Assembly: GCF_016889705.1 (NCBI RefSeq)
Contig: NZ_CP069526.1
Span: forward strand, 1,364,001 to 1,428,000
Source of the DNA: Amycolatopsis sp. FDAARGOS 1241
Lineage (GTDB): Bacteria; Actinomycetota; Actinomycetes; Mycobacteriales; Pseudonocardiaceae
Direction of reading: 5' to 3'
Length of the DNA: 64,000 nucleotides
Shown piece by piece: positions 2,253-57,307 of this stretch (position 1 is its first letter; each line of letters starts with the position of its first letter). The notes beneath the pieces are model-generated. The model did not search any database. It worked only from the letters and a program-made list of their open reading frames with translations, and had not been told where the DNA came from. The translations under genes were made by a program, and so were the position numbers.

Positions 2253-3724
2253 CCCGTCGCCCGGGGGCCTGCCGCGAACAGCGAGAGGCCCCCGGACCGC
2301 GCCCCGGACGGAGCCACCGCGGCGCAGTGCGTCCCCTGCCCCGGCAGCACGCCGTCGATCAGGAACCGGTCCGTTGTGGACACCACGCAGGGGCTGTTCT
2401 TGAAGTACGCACCGTGCCCCGCGCCGTCGTAGGTGAGCAGGCGCGCGCCGGTCTGGCGGGACACGTGCTGGGCCCATTCGTACGGCGTCGCCGGGTCGTA
2501 ACGGCTGTTCAGCAGCAGGACCGGGGCCTGGCCGAGGAACCCGGGCCGGCGCTGCGGGTCGCGGACGGCGCCGGGCCAGCCGATGCAGCCGGTGGCCGAC
2601 TTCCACGCCAGGGGCGAGAACCGGACGTCCGGCGCGATCGCCGCGAGCGAGTACCGGAACGTCTGCAGCTCGCCGAACCCGCTGATCGGCAGGTGCCAGT
2701 CGGAGCAGAAGATGCTGGCGAACGACGTGGGCACGGTGATGTCGCCGTACGCGGACTCCGCGGGTTTGCCGTCGCGCAGGCTGATCAGGTTCGTGGCCAG
2801 CTGATCCCACGACGGCCCGTAGAAGTTGCGCGTCACCATCCCCAGGAAGGCCACCGGGTCCAACGGGTCGTCCGGCGTGCTGAGCTGCCCGCGTTCGGCA
2901 CGCGAGTACAGCGAAGCCATCAGTGCGTGCACGTCCTGGCCGTGCAGCGCGCACGAGGAAGTCGTGGCGCACCAGTGCGCGAACTGGTCGAACATCTCCT
3001 GCGTCGCCCGCGTCTGCGAGCTGAGGAACTCCCACGTGCTGCGCAGGGAATGGTCCATCGTCCCGTCCAGCACGACCGCGCGCACGCGATCCGGGTACCG
3101 CTCGGCGTACTCCTGACCCATGAGCGTGCCGTACGAAGTGCCGTAGTACGTCAGCCTGCTCTCGCCCAGCGCGGCGCGGATCGCGTCGATGTCGCGGGCG
3201 ACGCTGGCGGTGTCGACGTGGTCGGCCAGCGGCCCGGTGGACTTCGCGCAGCTGTCGGCCAGCGCCCGGTTGCGCGCGGCGAGCTCCCTGAACTCACGGG
3301 GAGCCCGGGGCAGCTGATGCTCGGGCGCGGTCACGGCGTCGAGCCCGCACCGCACCGGGTTGCTGCGCCCGACGCCGCGCGGGTCGAACCCGACGGTGTC
3401 GAACCGCGCCGTGATGGCGGGCGACAGCGACCACCCGTCCTGCACCTCCGCCGCGCCCTCGCCGCCCGGCCCGCCGGGGTCCATGAGGACGGAACCGATG
3501 CGGTGCGCGGGATCGGTGGCCTTGCGCCGCGCGAGCGCGAGCCGGATCGTCCCGCCGCTCGGGTTCGCCCAATCGATCGGTACCGTGACCGTGCCGCAGT
3601 CGACGCCCGTGGCGTTCGGGCACGGCTTCCAGTCGATGCCCGCGGCACCGGCCGGCGCGGCGAGCAGGGCCGCGAGTGTGGGGACCGCCGCCGCGACGAC
3701 GGTCAGCTTCCTGCCCAGGCCCAT
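2246..3724 (-). CDS. Secreted tripeptidyl-aminopeptidase-like alpha/beta hydrolase (S33 family, TAP C-terminal domain)
   Basis: 492 residues with a Sec signal peptide (MGLGRK, hydrophobic stretch, cleavage near APAGAAG about residue 28). The fold carries the oxyanion loop MDPGGPGG (about 81-88), the nucleophile elbow GTSYGTLMG (Ser about 197), the acid loop SRYDPATPYEWA and the histidine loop GAGHGAYF. Paired cysteines after the histidine (PCVV, THCAAV) match the C-terminal TAP domain of the Streptomyces SlpD/SlpE group. These enzymes remove tripeptides or act as exported esterases; the substrate is not predictable. It is convergent with the YbjN-like gene. ATG 3724 has only a weak AGGTG upstream. 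Confidence 0.85.
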   Translation of the reverse strand: MGLGRKLTVVAAAVPTLAALLAAPAGAAGIDWKPCPNATGVDCGTVTVPIDWANPSGGTIRLALARRKATDPAHRIGSVLMDPGGPGGEGAAEVQDGWSLSPAITARFDTVGFDPRGVGRSNPVRCGLDAVTAPEHQLPRAPREFRELAARNRALADSCAKSTGPLADHVDTASVARDIDAIRAALGESRLTYYGTSYGTLMGQEYAERYPDRVRAVVLDGTMDHSLRSTWEFLSSQTRATQEMFDQFAHWCATTSSCALHGQDVHALMASLYSRAERGQLSTPDDPLDPVAFLGMVTRNFYGPSWDQLATNLISLRDGKPAESAYGDITVPTSFASIFCSDWHLPISGFGELQTFRYSLAAIAPDVRFSPLAWKSATGCIGWPGAVRDPQRRPGFLGQAPVLLLNSRYDPATPYEWAQHVSRQTGARLLTYDGAGHGAYFKNSPCVVSTTDRFLIDGVLPGQGTHCAAVAPSGARSGGLSLFAAGPRATGQ

Positions 3725-21760: not shown

Positions 21761-21970
21761 GACGAAGCTGGTCACGGCGTCAGTGGCGCCCGAATCCGAG
21801 ATGACGGGGGAGCCGGCGCCCGAGACGTACGCCTGCGTCGTGGCGCCGGGAGCGGAGGAACCCGCACCCGACCTGCCGCTGCTGGAGCTGGCAAGGCGAG
21901 CCGTCACGGGCGCTGGGCTGCGGGCCCGCGTACGGGCGGAGGCCGCTGTGCGCGCCACCGCCGGCCTGCC

Positions 21971-22131
21971 TGATCCGGCGCCGCCCGCCCGGCGCGGTGG
22001 CTGGTCTGCTGGTCCGGCGCCGCCCGCGCGGCGCTTTGGCTGGTCTGTCTTGTCCGGAGCCGTCTGCCGTCTGATCCGGTGCCGATCTGTCTGGTCCGGA
22101 GCTGTCTGCCGTCTGATCCAGTGGCGTCCTG
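21971..22131. repeat. 39-42 bp degenerate tandem repeat (array of composite element 1)
   Basis: Units starting TGATCCGGCG, TGGTCCGGCG, TTGTCCGGAG and TGGTCCGGAG occur at 21971, 22010, 22050 and 22092, each containing a GTCTG-rich end. The array lies immediately downstream, on the minus strand, of the promoter-like core at 22254-22276. No credible protein is encoded. Confidence 0.6.
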
Positions 22132-22253
22132 CCTAACCCGGAGCTGCCCGCCGCCTGGCCCGACGCCCAGTCACGGCCTGATGCAAAGCTGGTCACCAGG
22201 AGCGCAGCTCACCTGGGCGCGGCCCACCCTCCCTCGGGTGCCGTCCCCTGTCC

Positions 22254-22315
22254 AGTTTACTGGCCGGCGCCGACGCTTTCGGGGCGGAAGCCCCAGCTCA
22301 GCGCAGCTGTCCACA
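22254..22315 (-). promoter_or_regulatory. Composite element 1: degenerate damage-type promoter plus DnaA-box-like site
   Basis: On the minus strand GCGTCGGCG (22276-22268), 8 bases and TAAACT (22259-22254) match the spacing of the RecA-independent damage promoter TTGTCRGTG-N8-TAnnnT, with 6 of 9 -35 positions kept. CTGTCCACA (22307-22315) is one base from the actinobacterial DnaA box TTGTCCACA. The layout equals the elements at 40587 and 56429. Confidence 0.45.
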
Positions 22316-22402
22316 ACCCGATCGGGTGGGGATGAACGGCCGCGCAGCCGCCCGGTCAGCGCACGCTGCTGTTCCACCGCGCGATCCGGATCGAGGGAGC
22401 GT

Positions 22403-40290: not shown

Positions 40291-40507
40291 GCCCGCCAGC
40301 GCTTCGCAGTGCGATAGTTGATACCCACCCTCCGGGTGGCTTCGCCGGTCCCAGAGTTGCTTTCACCCGCAAGTAAACCGCCCGCTCCCCGGAGACGGTC
40401 CTGTCACACCGGTCAGAGCCCGAGATCTGCCACCCGACCCGCGGTCTCACTCCCGTCCGGGCATCAGCGCAACTCCTGAACAACTCGGGTATTGCGACCA
40501 CCGCCAG

Positions 40508-40579
40508 ACAGCTCCGCCGCTCGCCAGGGGAGCCCCCACCGCTCGCGAGACAGCCCCCACCGCTCCCCTGGGGGGCGTC
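40508..40579. repeat. About 20-bp tandem repeat (array of composite element 2)
   Basis: Units around AGCCCCCACCGCTCGC occur three times with variation (near 40511, 40531, 40551). The last runs into CCCCTGGGGGGC, the hairpin of the element core. Minus-strand translation gives ERWGLSRERWGLPWR, similar in layout to the repeat peptide of element 3. Confidence 0.6.
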
Positions 40580-40586
40580 CCGGTTC

Positions 40587-40669
40587 CATTTTACCGTTAC
40601 TGGGCCCCGAAAAGGGGTAGGAACGAAATCTGTGGACAGCTGCCGTCAAGCGCGGCGAACTGTGGACAA
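40587..40669 (-). promoter_or_regulatory. Composite element 2: -10-like core plus two DnaA-box-like sites
   Basis: Minus-strand TAAAAT (40593-40588) merges with an ATG (40589). TTTTCGGGG lies upstream with 11 instead of 8 spacer bases, so promoter function is doubtful. Two boxes, CTGTCCACA (40639-40631) and TTGTCCACA (40669-40661), are 30 bp apart, and the nearer is 37 bp from the -10, the same geometry as element 3. Confidence 0.5.
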
Positions 40670-40740
40670 GTCCGCAGGGTCGTTTGACAGCAGCCCTTGA
40701 ATCCGTCCACCAGCGAGAGGAACCGCGGAGTCACGAGTGG

Positions 40741-43622: not shown

Positions 43623-45298
43623 GTCTGCCCGAAAGACTTCGCTGCAATGCCCTCCTCGACCCAGATGGAGGAGGGGAGGACGTAGGCGCGCAAGAGCTCC
43701 ATGAGTTCGGGGTCGCCGTGCTGGTGGAGGGTGTGTTCGGCCAGGCGGCGGGCCGTGCCGGCCAGGAAGTCGGCGATTTGGACACGCGGATCGGTGCGGG
43801 AGTCGACGAAGTGGATCACCGGGGTGGGACCCAGGAGGGTCGCGACGCGGGCTCGGGTCAGTGAGGGCTGTTCGTCGTGGATGACGGTGGTCGCACGCCA
43901 GCGGCCGACGGTGTCGGCCAGGGCCGGCATGAGCGGGTCCAGGGGCGGGACCAGCGCGGGATCGGAGCGGAGGCGATCCCGAAGCGCGGTCAGGTGTGAG
44001 TAGGCCTGGGCGAGGAGTTCCGCGGCCGAGGACGGCACCGGATGCGCCGCCGGTGCACCGCTCGTGGGGGAGAGAGCTGTGAGTGGTCCTGTCGTGCCGT
44101 CTTGGGTTGTGGAGCGATTGGCGAGCGGTCCAGTCGTGTTGTCCTGAAGTTCGGGCACGTGGGCGAGTGGTCCTGTCGTGCCGTCCTGGGTGGCGGTGGG
44201 GTCGGCGGCCGGTCCCGCCGTGCTGTTTGGAACCTCGGGTCGGTGGGCGAGTGGTCCTGTCGTGCCGTCTTGGGTGGTGGAGCGATTGGCGAGCGGTCCA
44301 GTCGTGTTGTCCTGGAGTTCGGGCACGTGGGCGAGTGGTCCTGTCGTGCCGTCCTGGGTGGCGGTGGGGTCGGCGGCCGGTCCCGCCGTGCTGTTTGGAA
44401 CCTCGGGTCGGTGGGCGAGTGGTCCTGTCGTGCCGTCTTGGGTGGTGGAGGAATCGGCCAGCGGTCCAGGCGTGTTGTCCTGAAGTTCGGGCACGTGGGC
44501 GAGGGGTCCTGTCGTGCCGTCTTGGGTTGTGGAGGAATCGGCCAGCGGTCCAGTCGTGCTGTCCTGGAGTTCGGGCACGTGGGCGAGCGTCGTGCCGCGC
44601 GCGGTGGCGGCGGGATCGGCGGCCGGTCCCGCCGTACTGACATCAACGTCAGACCCGCGACCGAGCGGTCCCGTCGTGCCGGCGGGGACCGTGGGGGAGT
44701 CAGCGAGCGGTCCCATCCCGTCGCGCGGTGTCGTGAAAAACGTGGCGAGCGGGGACAGCACGTCGTCCTGGCTGAAGAACTGCGTGGGGGTCACGCCGGG
44801 GCGCCGGGGGGACGTGTGGAGCAGCGCGGTGAACGATCGCAGGAATTCGGCCCACCGCCGCTCACCGGCGAAGCGCGGGCCGGCGTGGTGCAGGGCCTCG
44901 GCGCGGGCGTCGGGACGCCGTGCGAGGCACTCGGGATAAGGCACCCGGTCGACGAGCAAGTCGACGATCTTGCCGGTCAGGAACAGGGCCTTGTCGACCA
45001 GCAGCACCCCGGCCCGGTCGACCAGCGGGCCGGACGGACCCAGGAACCACACCAGCGCCGCGCGGTTCTTGGCCCGCAACAGGTGGTTCGCCTTGTACTC
45101 CACGGCCGGCGACCGGATGCGGGCCCGCAGTTCGGCCACGCAAGCCGAAGCCGACGACGGGTCCAGCCGCACCCCGGCGTGCGCGAACACCGCGGTGTTC
45201 GCGCCGACGAGGTTGTCGCCTTCCGAGCCGGACTCGTCGCAGGCGAGGGGGCCTGACACGGAACCGATCCTGCCAGACGGGGCAACCCCGTTTTCCAC
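43619..45298 (-). CDS. DUF3800-like protein with tandem-repeat insert
   Basis: 559 residues. The N-terminal domain (ACDESGSEGDNLVGANTAVFAHAGVRLD, VEYKANHLL, VLLVDKALFLTGKIVDLLV) and the C-terminal segment (VIHFVDSRTDPRVQIADFLAGTARRLAEH) resemble the two halves of DUF3800, an RNase-H-like fold with acidic residues DES and D-R. Between them (about 200-420) lies a Thr/Gly/Pro-rich repeat region. The core without it is about 330 residues. GTG 45298 is 15 bp after the aldehyde dehydrogenase stop on the same strand; GTG 45259 is an alternative start. Confidence 0.65.
   Translation of the reverse strand: MENGVAPSGRIGSVSGPLACDESGSEGDNLVGANTAVFAHAGVRLDPSSASACVAELRARIRSPAVEYKANHLLRAKNRAALVWFLGPSGPLVDRAGVLLVDKALFLTGKIVDLLVDRVPYPECLARRPDARAEALHHAGPRFAGERRWAEFLRSFTALLHTSPRRPGVTPTQFFSQDDVLSPLATFFTTPRDGMGPLADSPTVPAGTTGPLGRGSDVDVSTAGPAADPAATARGTTLAHVPELQDSTTGPLADSSTTQDGTTGPLAHVPELQDNTPGPLADSSTTQDGTTGPLAHRPEVPNSTAGPAADPTATQDGTTGPLAHVPELQDNTTGPLANRSTTQDGTTGPLAHRPEVPNSTAGPAADPTATQDGTTGPLAHVPELQDNTTGPLANRSTTQDGTTGPLTALSPTSGAPAAHPVPSSAAELLAQAYSHLTALRDRLRSDPALVPPLDPLMPALADTVGRWRATTVIHDEQPSLTRARVATLLGPTPVIHFVDSRTDPRVQIADFLAGTARRLAEHTLHQHGDPELMELLRAYVLPSSIWVEEGIAAKSFGQT
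44100..44640 (-). repeat. 168-bp (56-residue) tandem repeat inside the DUF3800-like gene
   Basis: About three near-identical 168-bp units: the pair at 44113/44281 (AGCGATTGG) and at 44271/44439 (TGGGTGGTGG) is offset by exactly 168. Each unit is two 28-residue halves, one with AHVPELQDNTTGPLA and one with AHRPEVPNSTAGPAA, joined by TTQDGTTGPL. Confidence 0.9.
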
Positions 45299-55743: not shown

Positions 55744-56367
55744 TCAAAGTTCGACGGTCACCGCGCTGAACACCTCGCGCAGCACCTCGCGGAAGGAAAC
55801 GGGTGGGTCCGCACGCGCCCAGTGGGCCATGGCCGCACGGATCGCCGCGCCCGCCGCGGTGGCGACGAGCAGGGGGTAGAGATCGTGGTCCGCGTCGGTC
55901 CCGGTGCGGTCGGCGACAGCCTGTGAGAGCGCGATTTCGGCCGCTACGTTGGCTTTCTGGAACTCGCCTTGCAGGGCCGGCTCGGCCATCATCAGCTGCA
56001 CGCCCTGTGTCCACTCCGGATCCGGTGTGGACACAGGGCCTGTCTGGTCGGTCTGCTCGGTGTGATCGGCCTCGAACCGCGCCAACGCGGCCTGCGTGAT
56101 GGCCTCCCAGATGGGCTCATCCGCCGGCCGCGCGCGCACCCGCTCGGCGATGCCGATCGCGCGGTCGTGGTGCCGGGCCGCGATGGCCTCGGCCTTGCTG
56201 GAGAAGTAGTTGTTCACCGTGCGCGGCGAGACGCCGGCTTCGTTCGCGATGTCCTCGATGGTCACGTTGTCCAGACCGCGCTCGACCGCGAGCCGGATCG
56301 CCGCCCACGAGATGGCGGTGCGCGTCTCCTGCCGGCGGCGCTCCCGCAGGCTCGGTCGTTCGGTCAT
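55744..56367 (-). CDS. TetR-family regulator of the monooxygenase
   Basis: 207 residues. The helix-turn-helix TRTAISWAAIRLAVERGLDNVTIEDIANEAGVSPRTVNNYFSSKAEAI (read in pieces) is typical TetR. It precedes the FAD monooxygenase by 8 bp on the same strand, so it is likely an autoregulated operon induced by the enzyme's substrate. The C-terminal domain resembles the actinobacterial TetR_C group beside Rox-like enzymes. Confidence 0.88.
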   Translation of the reverse strand: MTERPSLRERRRQETRTAISWAAIRLAVERGLDNVTIEDIANEAGVSPRTVNNYFSSKAEAIAARHHDRAIGIAERVRARPADEPIWEAITQAALARFEADHTEQTDQTGPVSTPDPEWTQGVQLMMAEPALQGEFQKANVAAEIALSQAVADRTGTDADHDLYPLLVATAAGAAIRAAMAHWARADPPVSFREVLREVFSAVTVEL

Positions 56368-56428: not shown

Positions 56429-56511
56429 GTGTCCACAGGGTCGGCGAGTGCGGTCGAATTGTGGACAACTCAGCTTTGACCAGACGTTTTGTCGGTGGTG
56501 GCCGATAGAAT
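56429..56511 (+). promoter_or_regulatory. Composite element 3: RecA-independent damage promoter plus two DnaA-box-like sites
   Basis: TTGTCGGTG (56489-56497), 8 bases and TAGAAT (56506-56511) match TTGTCRGTG-N8-TAnnnT exactly. GTGTCCACA (56429-56437) and TGTGGACAA (56460-56468, a perfect reverse DnaA box) lie 30 bp apart upstream, the nearer ending 37 bp before the -10. The promoter points into the 18-bp minisatellite. Confidence 0.7.
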
Positions 56512-56656
56512 GGACTTGGGGTGGCCCCCTGGGAGGGTGGGGCTGTGTTGTCGGGCGGGGCTGTGTTGCCGGGTGGGGCTGTGTTGCCGGGTGGGGCTGT
56601 GTTGCCGGGTGGGGCTGTGTTGCCGGGTGGGGCTGTGTTGTCGGGTGGGGCTGTAG
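56510..56656 (+). other. Possible 48-residue repeat peptide frame (VGLCCR repeats)
   Basis: From an ATG that overlaps the -10 box a frame reads MDLGWPPGR, then VGLCCR-type hexapeptides six times, and stops at TAG 56654. Element 2 has a parallel frame MEPGRPPGERWGL. Because the ATG lies upstream of the predicted transcript start, translation from it by this promoter is impossible; an alternative frame from GTG 56521 gives GGAVLP repeats. I do not claim a gene. Confidence 0.25.
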
Positions 56657-56663
56657 AGACCGG
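56538..56663. repeat. 18-bp minisatellite TGGGGCTGTGTTGCCGGG, six full copies plus one partial
   Basis: Units begin at 56538, 56556, 56574, 56592, 56610 and 56628, with a degenerate seventh at 56646. Three inner copies are identical; the outer ones differ by one or two bases. From 56664 to 57080 the sequence continues as highly degenerate units containing GAGAAACCC/GAAGCCC, without a recognisable gene. Confidence 0.92.
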
Positions 56664-57090
56664 TCGTCCTGGGAGACGCCAGCCTTGGAAGAAGCCCGTT
56701 GTCAGATGCCGCCGCTGAGGGGACCCGCCTCCCGGGAAAGGTGCGCTTGGGAGAGCCTGCGCCCTGGATGACACGGACGACCAGTGCCGTCCGGGACCGT
56801 TCTTCGGGAATGACAGCCTGCGCTGAGTTACGGCCTGCCGTGGGTGACTGCCTGCGGCTAGGACATCGCGTGCGCTGGGAGATCGCGTGCCCCGGAGGCG
56901 GGGCCTGCGTGAGAAGCCCTGCCTGTGGAAGCTTGGCCGCGCAGAAAACCCGCGCCTCCGTAAAGCCCGTCCGCTTGGCAAACCCTCCCCTTGGAAGGCT
57001 CAGCCGCCCGAGAAACCCTTGCCCGTGAGAAACCTGTGCCCCCAACAATGCCTCGCCCCGAGAAACCCCTCCTGCTGCAAGCGCGAAAAA

Positions 57091-57130: not shown

Positions 57131-57307
57131 TCAGTCGGAGGCGCCCTTGATGGCGTCCTTCACCTTGTCGGCGGCCTGTTTCAGGTTGCTCTTGCCCTGT
57201 TCGGCCTTGCCCTCGGCCTGCCACTGCTCGTTGTCGGTCGCGTTGCCGGCTGCTTCCTTGGCGCGGCCCTTGAGCTCTTCGGCCTTGTTCTCAGCCTTGT
57301 CGTTCAT
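57131..57307 (-). CDS. CsbD-family stress protein
   Basis: 58 residues: MNDKAENKAEELKGRAKEAAG, then NATDNEQWQAEGKAEQGKSN and LKQAADKVKDAIKGASD. This is the CsbD pattern of a small, highly charged, helical protein, usually under general stress sigma control. Function unknown. GGAGG sits seven bases before ATG 57307, and a strong terminator follows 15 bp after the stop, so it is monocistronic. The acid/lysine-rich composition differs from all neighbours. Confidence 0.92.
   Translation of the reverse strand: MNDKAENKAEELKGRAKEAAGNATDNEQWQAEGKAEQGKSNLKQAADKVKDAIKGASD

Follow-up and report, generated by a model that had tools for sequence, protein, structure and literature searches.

A multi-copy, apparently undescribed non-coding element of Amycolatopsis with paired DnaA-box-like sites, a PafBC-type promoter core and a G/C tract

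Introduction

REP/BIME sequences and MITEs are interspersed, extragenic repeats that often lie 3' of genes, contain a palindromic part and are gained and lost at individual sites. Clusters of DnaA boxes occur in Bacillus subtilis and Streptomyces coelicolor. To our knowledge, little is understood of how actinobacteria time replication initiation, or of whether DnaA communicates with the damage response. In Escherichia coli, datA and DARS are DnaA-box loci outside oriC (PMC4585315). The high-affinity DnaA box is listed as TTGTCCACA for S. coelicolor and M. tuberculosis and as TTATCCACA for E. coli (PMC4285127, Table 1). The RecA-independent promoter consensus of mycobacteria is given as tTGTCRgtg-8nt-TannnT (PMC5656591), and PafBC is described as being switched on by single-stranded DNA and as helping the housekeeping polymerase at its promoters (PMC11804915).

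The window is the whole 64,000-nucleotide stretch of the Amycolatopsis sp. FDAARGOS 1241 genome that was analysed. The first-pass annotation had read one spot in it as a copy of a composite element, in which an exact RecA-independent (PafBC-type) promoter with two DnaA-box-like sites upstream would drive an 18-bp minisatellite. No description of this element was found in the literature searched, and it is apparently an undescribed, conserved non-coding DNA of Amycolatopsis.

Methods

A query of 93 bases returned 25 places, and 27 copies were aligned and turned into a sequence-only model, R1. Genome-wide R1 counts were taken at E <= 1e-3, and the eight weakest of the 69 host matches were omitted where n = 61. 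Of the 166 matches that were aligned, 159 had sufficient length, and a core could be recognised in 148, a few places being counted twice. Removal of duplicates gave the 142 distinct copies used for array counts. In the alignment of orthologues from 15 species, L223 was treated apart and L224 was omitted (contig edge).

Results

Features of the window copy

The pattern TTGTCRGTG-N8-TAnnnT matched the window once, where dinucleotide shuffles expect 0.01, and the exact promoter proposed in the first-pass annotation was thus confirmed, as were both DnaA-box-like sites upstream of it (Table 1). The G/C tract begins just 3' of the -10 box.

Table 1. Positions of the element copies, repeats and neighbouring genes in the window
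Feature	Position	Strand	Basis
Whole element, family model R1, 74.3 bits	56429..56548	+	
DnaA-box-like site 1, GTGTCCACA, one mismatch against TTGTCCACA	56429..56437	+	
DnaA-box-like site 2, TGTGGACAA on +, exact TTGTCCACA on -	56460..56468	-	Also family alignments
Promoter of PafBC/RecA-independent type, TTGTCGGTG-N8-TAGAAT	56489..56511	+	Consensus match
G/C tract with hairpin potential, GGGGTGGCCCCCTGGGAGGGTGGGGC (GGGG..CCCCC..GGGAGGGTGGGGC), family-conserved	56518..56543	+	
18-bp minisatellite, first unit in 3' arm of G/C tract	56535..56654	+	TRF
Decayed tandem repeat, hidden ~17-bp period, without coding signal	56655..57085	+	
Second element copy, 47.5 bits (R1)	22222..22333	-	
39-42-bp tandem repeats downstream of second copy	21966-22157		
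Further element copy, 34.6 bits (R1)	40552..40672	-	
21-bp repeats overlapping 3' arm of further copy	40502-40573		
Left neighbour, TetR-type regulator	55744..56367	-	TetR_N, TetR_C_14
Right neighbour, CsbD-like protein	57131..57307	-	G051 orthologue scores as CsbD

Family size and architecture

The family unit was about 125 bp long. R1 gave 69 matches in the host genome, three of them in the window, which bore out the claim of a multi-copy element. At least one R1 match was present in 59 of 60 Amycolatopsis genomes (with no more than 58 candidates scored in each). Sampling across the order gave matches in 24 of 200 genomes, and these were 8 Amycolatopsis (host included), 13 from other genera of the family and 3 from other families. 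All 63 stretches matching the strict pattern in the named GTDB collection, where the host genome is possibly absent, were Amycolatopsis. Rfam covariance models gave no hit at the gathering score at six copy loci; at the window copy, rows were obtained only far below that score and none lay over the element itself.

Family copies usually contained an inverted DnaA-box pair, then a PafBC-like promoter core, then the G/C tract. Among the 148 copies, the '><' box order (at most one mismatch) was present in 108, with 21 bp from start to start in 99, and box 2 lay 39/40 bp before the -35 in 92 copies but 28/29 bp before it in another 19. Boxes in direct repeat were 18-19 or 30-31 bp apart. The box-to-promoter spacing therefore differs between copies by one helical turn, and proteins sitting on the same face of the DNA would require such steps. 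At one orthologous site box 1 reads TTGTCCACA or TTATCCACA, and either box orientation occurs in the family, which favours protein sites over a hairpin.

The spaced pair TTRTCCACA-N12-TGTGGAYAA (at most one mismatch) had 36 sites in the genome against 0 for the reversed control. Comparison by eye placed 33 of the 36 inside R1 matches, four being partial matches that cover mainly the boxes. Solo inverted pairs with the exact element spacing and no R1 match were seen at G000:C1:976077, 6810107 and 9070839. Back-to-back partial matches with a box pair in common were seen in L012, at 3052-3135 (+) and 2963-3086 (-), and in L016, at 2915-2984 (-) and 2949-3057 (+), as if some elements are or were bidirectional. 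The box cluster adjoining dnaA in the host genome contained 8 boxes with one mismatch and 0 exact.

In the promoter core, TAnnnT was present in 134 of the 148 copies, GTCGG was intact in 102 and the strict PafBC consensus was found in 20. Across the whole genome, the strict consensus had 19 matches against 0 for the reversed control pattern. As the first-pass annotation had stated for this promoter class in mycobacteria, the motif precedes repair genes, lying upstream of dinB (Pol IV), the proteasome ATPase and a DEDD exonuclease in the same Amycolatopsis genome; it also lies upstream of a LigA-like start and a DnaN-like gene, both of these gene matches being below NCBI cut-offs. Because the strict motif is found in just 20 of the 148 copies and the TTGTC part is poorly kept in the clade of the 15-species site described below, PafBC dependence cannot be general across the family copies so compared.

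Chromosomal position and gene context

The host genome had one dnaA match, at C1:9188361. The 61 host copies had a mean distance to dnaA of 0.293 of the half chromosome (z -5.6 against uniform), and 107 places among the matches listed for 14 other genomes had a mean of 0.246 (z -9.1), with 106 of the 107 in the origin-proximal 60%. Density also fell inside the first six deciles, with 72 places in the first three and 34 in the next three, among the matches listed. In the fragmented genome G014, the eight places among the matches listed were 0.08-1.34 Mb from dnaA. Nine promoter-only PafBC-type sites in the host genome were spread over 0.06-1.0 of the half chromosome. Orientation relative to replication was hardly biased (35:26 in the host; 62:45 among the matches listed in 14 genomes). 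The core region of A. orientalis is given as 0-3.1 and 6.3-8.9 Mbp (PMC4048454). Since this is about the extent of the element zone, part of the origin bias may be a core-region bias, and core membership may explain the edge of the zone; the 72-to-34 fall within the first six deciles is not explained by it.

Both neighbours were called for 55 of the 61 host copies, and the gaps were 28 convergent, 22 tandem and 5 divergent according to a home-made ORF caller; two of the 61 copies fell inside a called ORF. On a circular chromosome, gaps of the convergent and the divergent kind must occur equally often, so the observed 28 to 5 is strongly skewed (two-sided binomial about 7e-5). Because the preferred gap is convergent, driving a downstream gene would not be the rule for the element. 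The same preference, together with the conserved G/C tract and the run of four T that follows it in a small number of copies (G051:4108420 and G028:790194 among them), is consistent with a terminator or insulator between convergent genes whose promoter-like part is incidental. The T-run is missing in most copies read, and two DnaA boxes, TAnnnT in 134 of 148 copies and the origin-side placement would all be left unexplained, so that we regard this explanation as unlikely.

The G/C tract was also examined as a possible structured RNA, a candidate that was rejected. Alifold returned 3 pairs with no compensatory change on alignment A1 and 3 pairs on 125 G/C-tract segments. The tract fold was only slightly more stable (-16.8) than mononucleotide shuffles (-14.9, sd 3.2), and mutual information gave no support to a stem GTCGG/CCGATA. 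A unique fold was not established, and the word hairpin denotes potential only.

Minisatellite arrays

TRF reported the array beside the window promoter as 18 bp x 6.7 copies with 96% matches. The units at 56535, 56553, 56571, 56589, 56607 and 56625 agreed with the consensus at 17-18 positions out of 18, and a seventh, partial unit did so at 14 of 18. The following sequence (56656-57085) had a hidden period of about 17 bp, with z of 6.0 at lag 17, 4.9 at lag 34 and 4.4 at lag 50. The six repeats claimed downstream of the promoter were thus real, in an array longer than described whose decayed part reaches 57085, and nearly all of the 540 bp past the G/C tract looks like young and old tandem repeat. 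A large 42-bp minisatellite of about 12 copies was also seen at 44081-44639 of the window, with no element match alongside.

A peptide product of the array was rejected, as the three ORFs over it were without coding signature: their GC3 was 0.62-0.70, compared with 0.88 and 0.96 in the two neighbours. One DUF1388 repeat match over the array was weak and below cut-off.

Among the 142 distinct copies, 29 had any above-threshold downstream array, with 34 such arrays in total. Eleven of the 34 started at +31..+38 from the core, which is in the 3' arm, none at +39..+59, and 23 were scattered from +60; the 26 upstream arrays had no peak of start positions. Units and periods (15-34 bp) varied by locus, and the G-run of the arm was included where read. 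Periodic sequence with a period not divisible by 3 (z>=4) was found at 6 of 61 host loci upstream, 7 downstream and 0 farther away. In 34 copies of two relatives, the same test gave 0 upstream and 1 downstream. With all periods counted, far windows scored too (18/61), as coding DNA does. The idea that arrays are element-specific in general was rejected, because the upstream count (6/61) is about the downstream count (7/61). On these counts, most intergenic arrays in the host are not tied to the element, the exception being the class that starts in the 3' arm.

The first-pass annotation had taken the array as the product that the element exists to make, a repetitive RNA or peptide transcribed from a damage-inducible promoter, and had proposed searching for the promoter-array pair across Amycolatopsis. 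The exact promoter about 25 bp 5' of six clean repeats suggests as much, as does the start spot that arrays of differing unit and period share in 11 copies. That search found an array starting from the tract in just 11 of the 142 copies, and the other 131 have none at that spot; units and periods are not conserved between loci, and no coding signal is present. A promoter meant to transcribe the minisatellite is therefore very improbable. The 18-bp array would instead be a secondary outcome of the G-rich 3' arm, with strand slippage as its simplest cause.

Relation to 13E12 (DUF222) genes

It had also been foreseen that the element might prove to be the upstream remnant of a 13E12 (DUF222-HNH) gene since deleted. 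The host genome contained no DUF222 gene, and the 59 other Amycolatopsis genomes in the same search had at least one each, a difference that deletion in the host would account for. DUF222 was absent from 259 fetched loci, nearly all of them element loci (0/102, 0/94 and 0/63 targets, some overlapping and about nine being promoter-only loci). In the positive control of that search, 20 of 20 DUF222 loci were found, each by another locus's query, although the 20 queries came from a simple frame pick and included some short or wrong pieces (e.g. 44, 68 and 128 aa).

The promoter with boxes was sought in about 500 bp upstream of Amycolatopsis DUF222 genes and was found in 0 of 20, the best region having a promoter score of 10/12 and one gene having a single box with one mismatch. 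Outside the genus but within the order, 3 of 17 DUF222 loci had a comparable promoter close to the gene (L053, L059 and L057, the last a weak R1 match), which favours a 13E12 origin. With no DUF222 linkage in the genus, and with a gene-free footprint maintained in 15 species, a 13E12 remnant was disfavoured, and we consider it scarcely credible.

Conservation, gain and loss of copies

Beside one gene, the element was kept in 15 species, and the adjoining intergenic DNA did not align. This footprint was nearly invariant at both boxes, in the bases leading up to the -35, in the -10 region and across the G/C tract. Sequence varied, or could not be aligned, in the ten-base interval separating the boxes, in the dozen bases following box 2, in the -35/-10 spacer, in the upstream sequence and in the 10-75 bases that separate element and gene. 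G018 had no element at this site, even though the query matches its gene at 98%; for the remaining genomes searched with that gene, the match excluded the element, and in G006 it ended at a contig edge. Family-wide, copies had diverged in their spacers yet retained the motifs. On this pattern, the element at the 15-species site does not behave as a dead remnant. A palindromic repeat, CCAATGTGGCATTGG, and its variants were seen just upstream of the orthologous element in L208-L212, L216, L217 and L222, and a different palindromic motif, TGAATGAGTCATTCA with its near variants, lay next to elements in the intergenic DNA of L066, L078, L082 and L087.

At the site of the window copy in G028 and G051, the CsbD-like and TetR genes were almost joined and about 660 bp comprising element and array were missing, with junctions resolved only approximately and not to the base. 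Synteny was marked by an FMN reductase 96% identical in G028 and 92% identical in G051. Of 34 copies in these two genomes, 10 lay in gaps syntenic with a host copy, 5 of the 10 in opposite orientation. At 8885819/G051:4018056, each species' copy was in a different gap, where the other species had about 38 or 60 bp. Because of such reciprocal filled and empty gaps and the missing syntenic copies, we conclude that copies arrive, or are lost, repeatedly.

Among the 61 host copies, no near-identical element pair at distant places was seen by eye; the long near-identical stretches among the 61 loci were two local duplications and flanking transposase-like DNA. The duplicate copies were 636 bp apart in L097 and 662 bp apart in L105, the latter with 99 bp downstream alike at 98% identity. 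In several copies, transposase relics directly abutted the G/C tract, which looks as though it had served as a target for insertion. Judging from their motifs, we take these relics to be IS30-like C-terminal parts (L009, L033 and L099) and an ISAs1-like one (L092). L099 and L033 had 670 bp of relic DNA alike at 96% directly 3' of the tract. At two distant element sites, L092 and L029, the upstream flanks were 99.9% identical over 1020 bp, which probably reflects a recent mobile copy.

A REP/MITE-like non-autonomous repeat in harmless convergent gaps, with a promoter and boxes that have no role for the host, would be multi-copy, extragenic and mostly at gene 3' ends, as the family is. It would also account for the absence of the window copy from its syntenic site in G028 and G051, the missing copy in G018, the reciprocal gaps and the flips in 5 of 10 syntenic pairs. 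It would not lead one to expect spacers that diverge while motifs stay, the 15-species footprint, or helical-turn spacing between box and promoter. The lack of near-identical distant copies also speaks against it, as does the search of plasmid, phage and viral-contig collections, in which the element had no match. This explanation is a possibility to be taken seriously, though we think it unlikely to be the right one.

Discussion

The odds that the spot in the window belongs to a non-coding regulatory element, present in many copies and linked to DnaA and to DNA damage, are in our judgement about even, the function being read from sequence. In such an element, DnaA would bind the box pair and act on RNA polymerase on the same helix face, and PafBC would join the polymerase at copies with the full motif. 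Transcription would start about 7 nt after TAnnnT, so that the RNA would run at once into the G/C tract and be short or paused. Replication state and DNA damage together would set promoter use, and the dozens of near-consensus, early-replicated boxes may also titrate DnaA. Several observations count against this reading: the small share of strict-motif copies, the possible core-region share in the origin bias, the lack of an exact box in the cluster adjoining dnaA, the nearly unbiased orientation relative to replication, a tract fold barely more stable than shuffles, and the turnover and flips of copies, which would suit a mobile repeat as well.

Since PafBC is reported to be activated by single-stranded DNA (PMC11804915), the element could be a meeting point of initiation state and fork damage. 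Titration alone would need neither the helical spacing nor a promoter, and a promoter role alone would need no origin-side placement; the two roles together are favoured for these reasons. A wider and rather doubtful proposal is a distributed layer of replication control, in which DnaA, on a phased pair of near-consensus boxes, and PafBC would act on one promoter core at dozens of origin-side modules, initiation state and fork damage would be read jointly at early-replicating sites, and tract-seeded minisatellites would be a trace of activity.

Box pairs fixed to a damage-type promoter core, genus-wide and crowded towards the origin, make a directly testable set. They raise the questions of whether DnaA binds at these sites, whether they fire after damage and whether removing several of them shifts initiation. 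The family is also a natural collection of minisatellites starting at one fixed place in the G/C tract, which is useful for studies of array birth in bacteria.

Four described systems come close. Like the 13E12/DUF222-HNH genes, which have a similar promoter at three loci of other genera, the element has a damage-type core, but it is gene-free and in Amycolatopsis is not linked to DUF222. With REP/BIME and MITE repeats it shares dispersal, extragenic and often gene-3' placement, a palindromic part, and gain and loss; unlike them, it has conserved boxes of protein-binding type and a promoter core, and lies on the origin side. With the mycobacterial PafBC/RecA-NDp/P1 promoters (PMC5656591, PMC11804915), it shares the exact consensus as reported there in the window copy, and the motif precedes repair genes in the Amycolatopsis genome as well. 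In contrast to those promoters, most copies retain only a partial motif, two DnaA boxes lie upstream with a G/C tract at the start site, and a same-direction gene close downstream is usually absent.

Finally, datA, DARS and the DnaA-box clusters of B. subtilis and S. coelicolor are likewise non-coding and origin-linked, with near-consensus boxes. They are one or few loci, whereas the element comes in dozens of stereotyped copies, in each of which a fixed box pair is coupled with a promoter-like core and with a G/C tract. Dispersed DnaA-box loci are thus already known, and what appears to be new is a stereotyped module, repeated dozens-fold, with a promoter core and a G/C tract.
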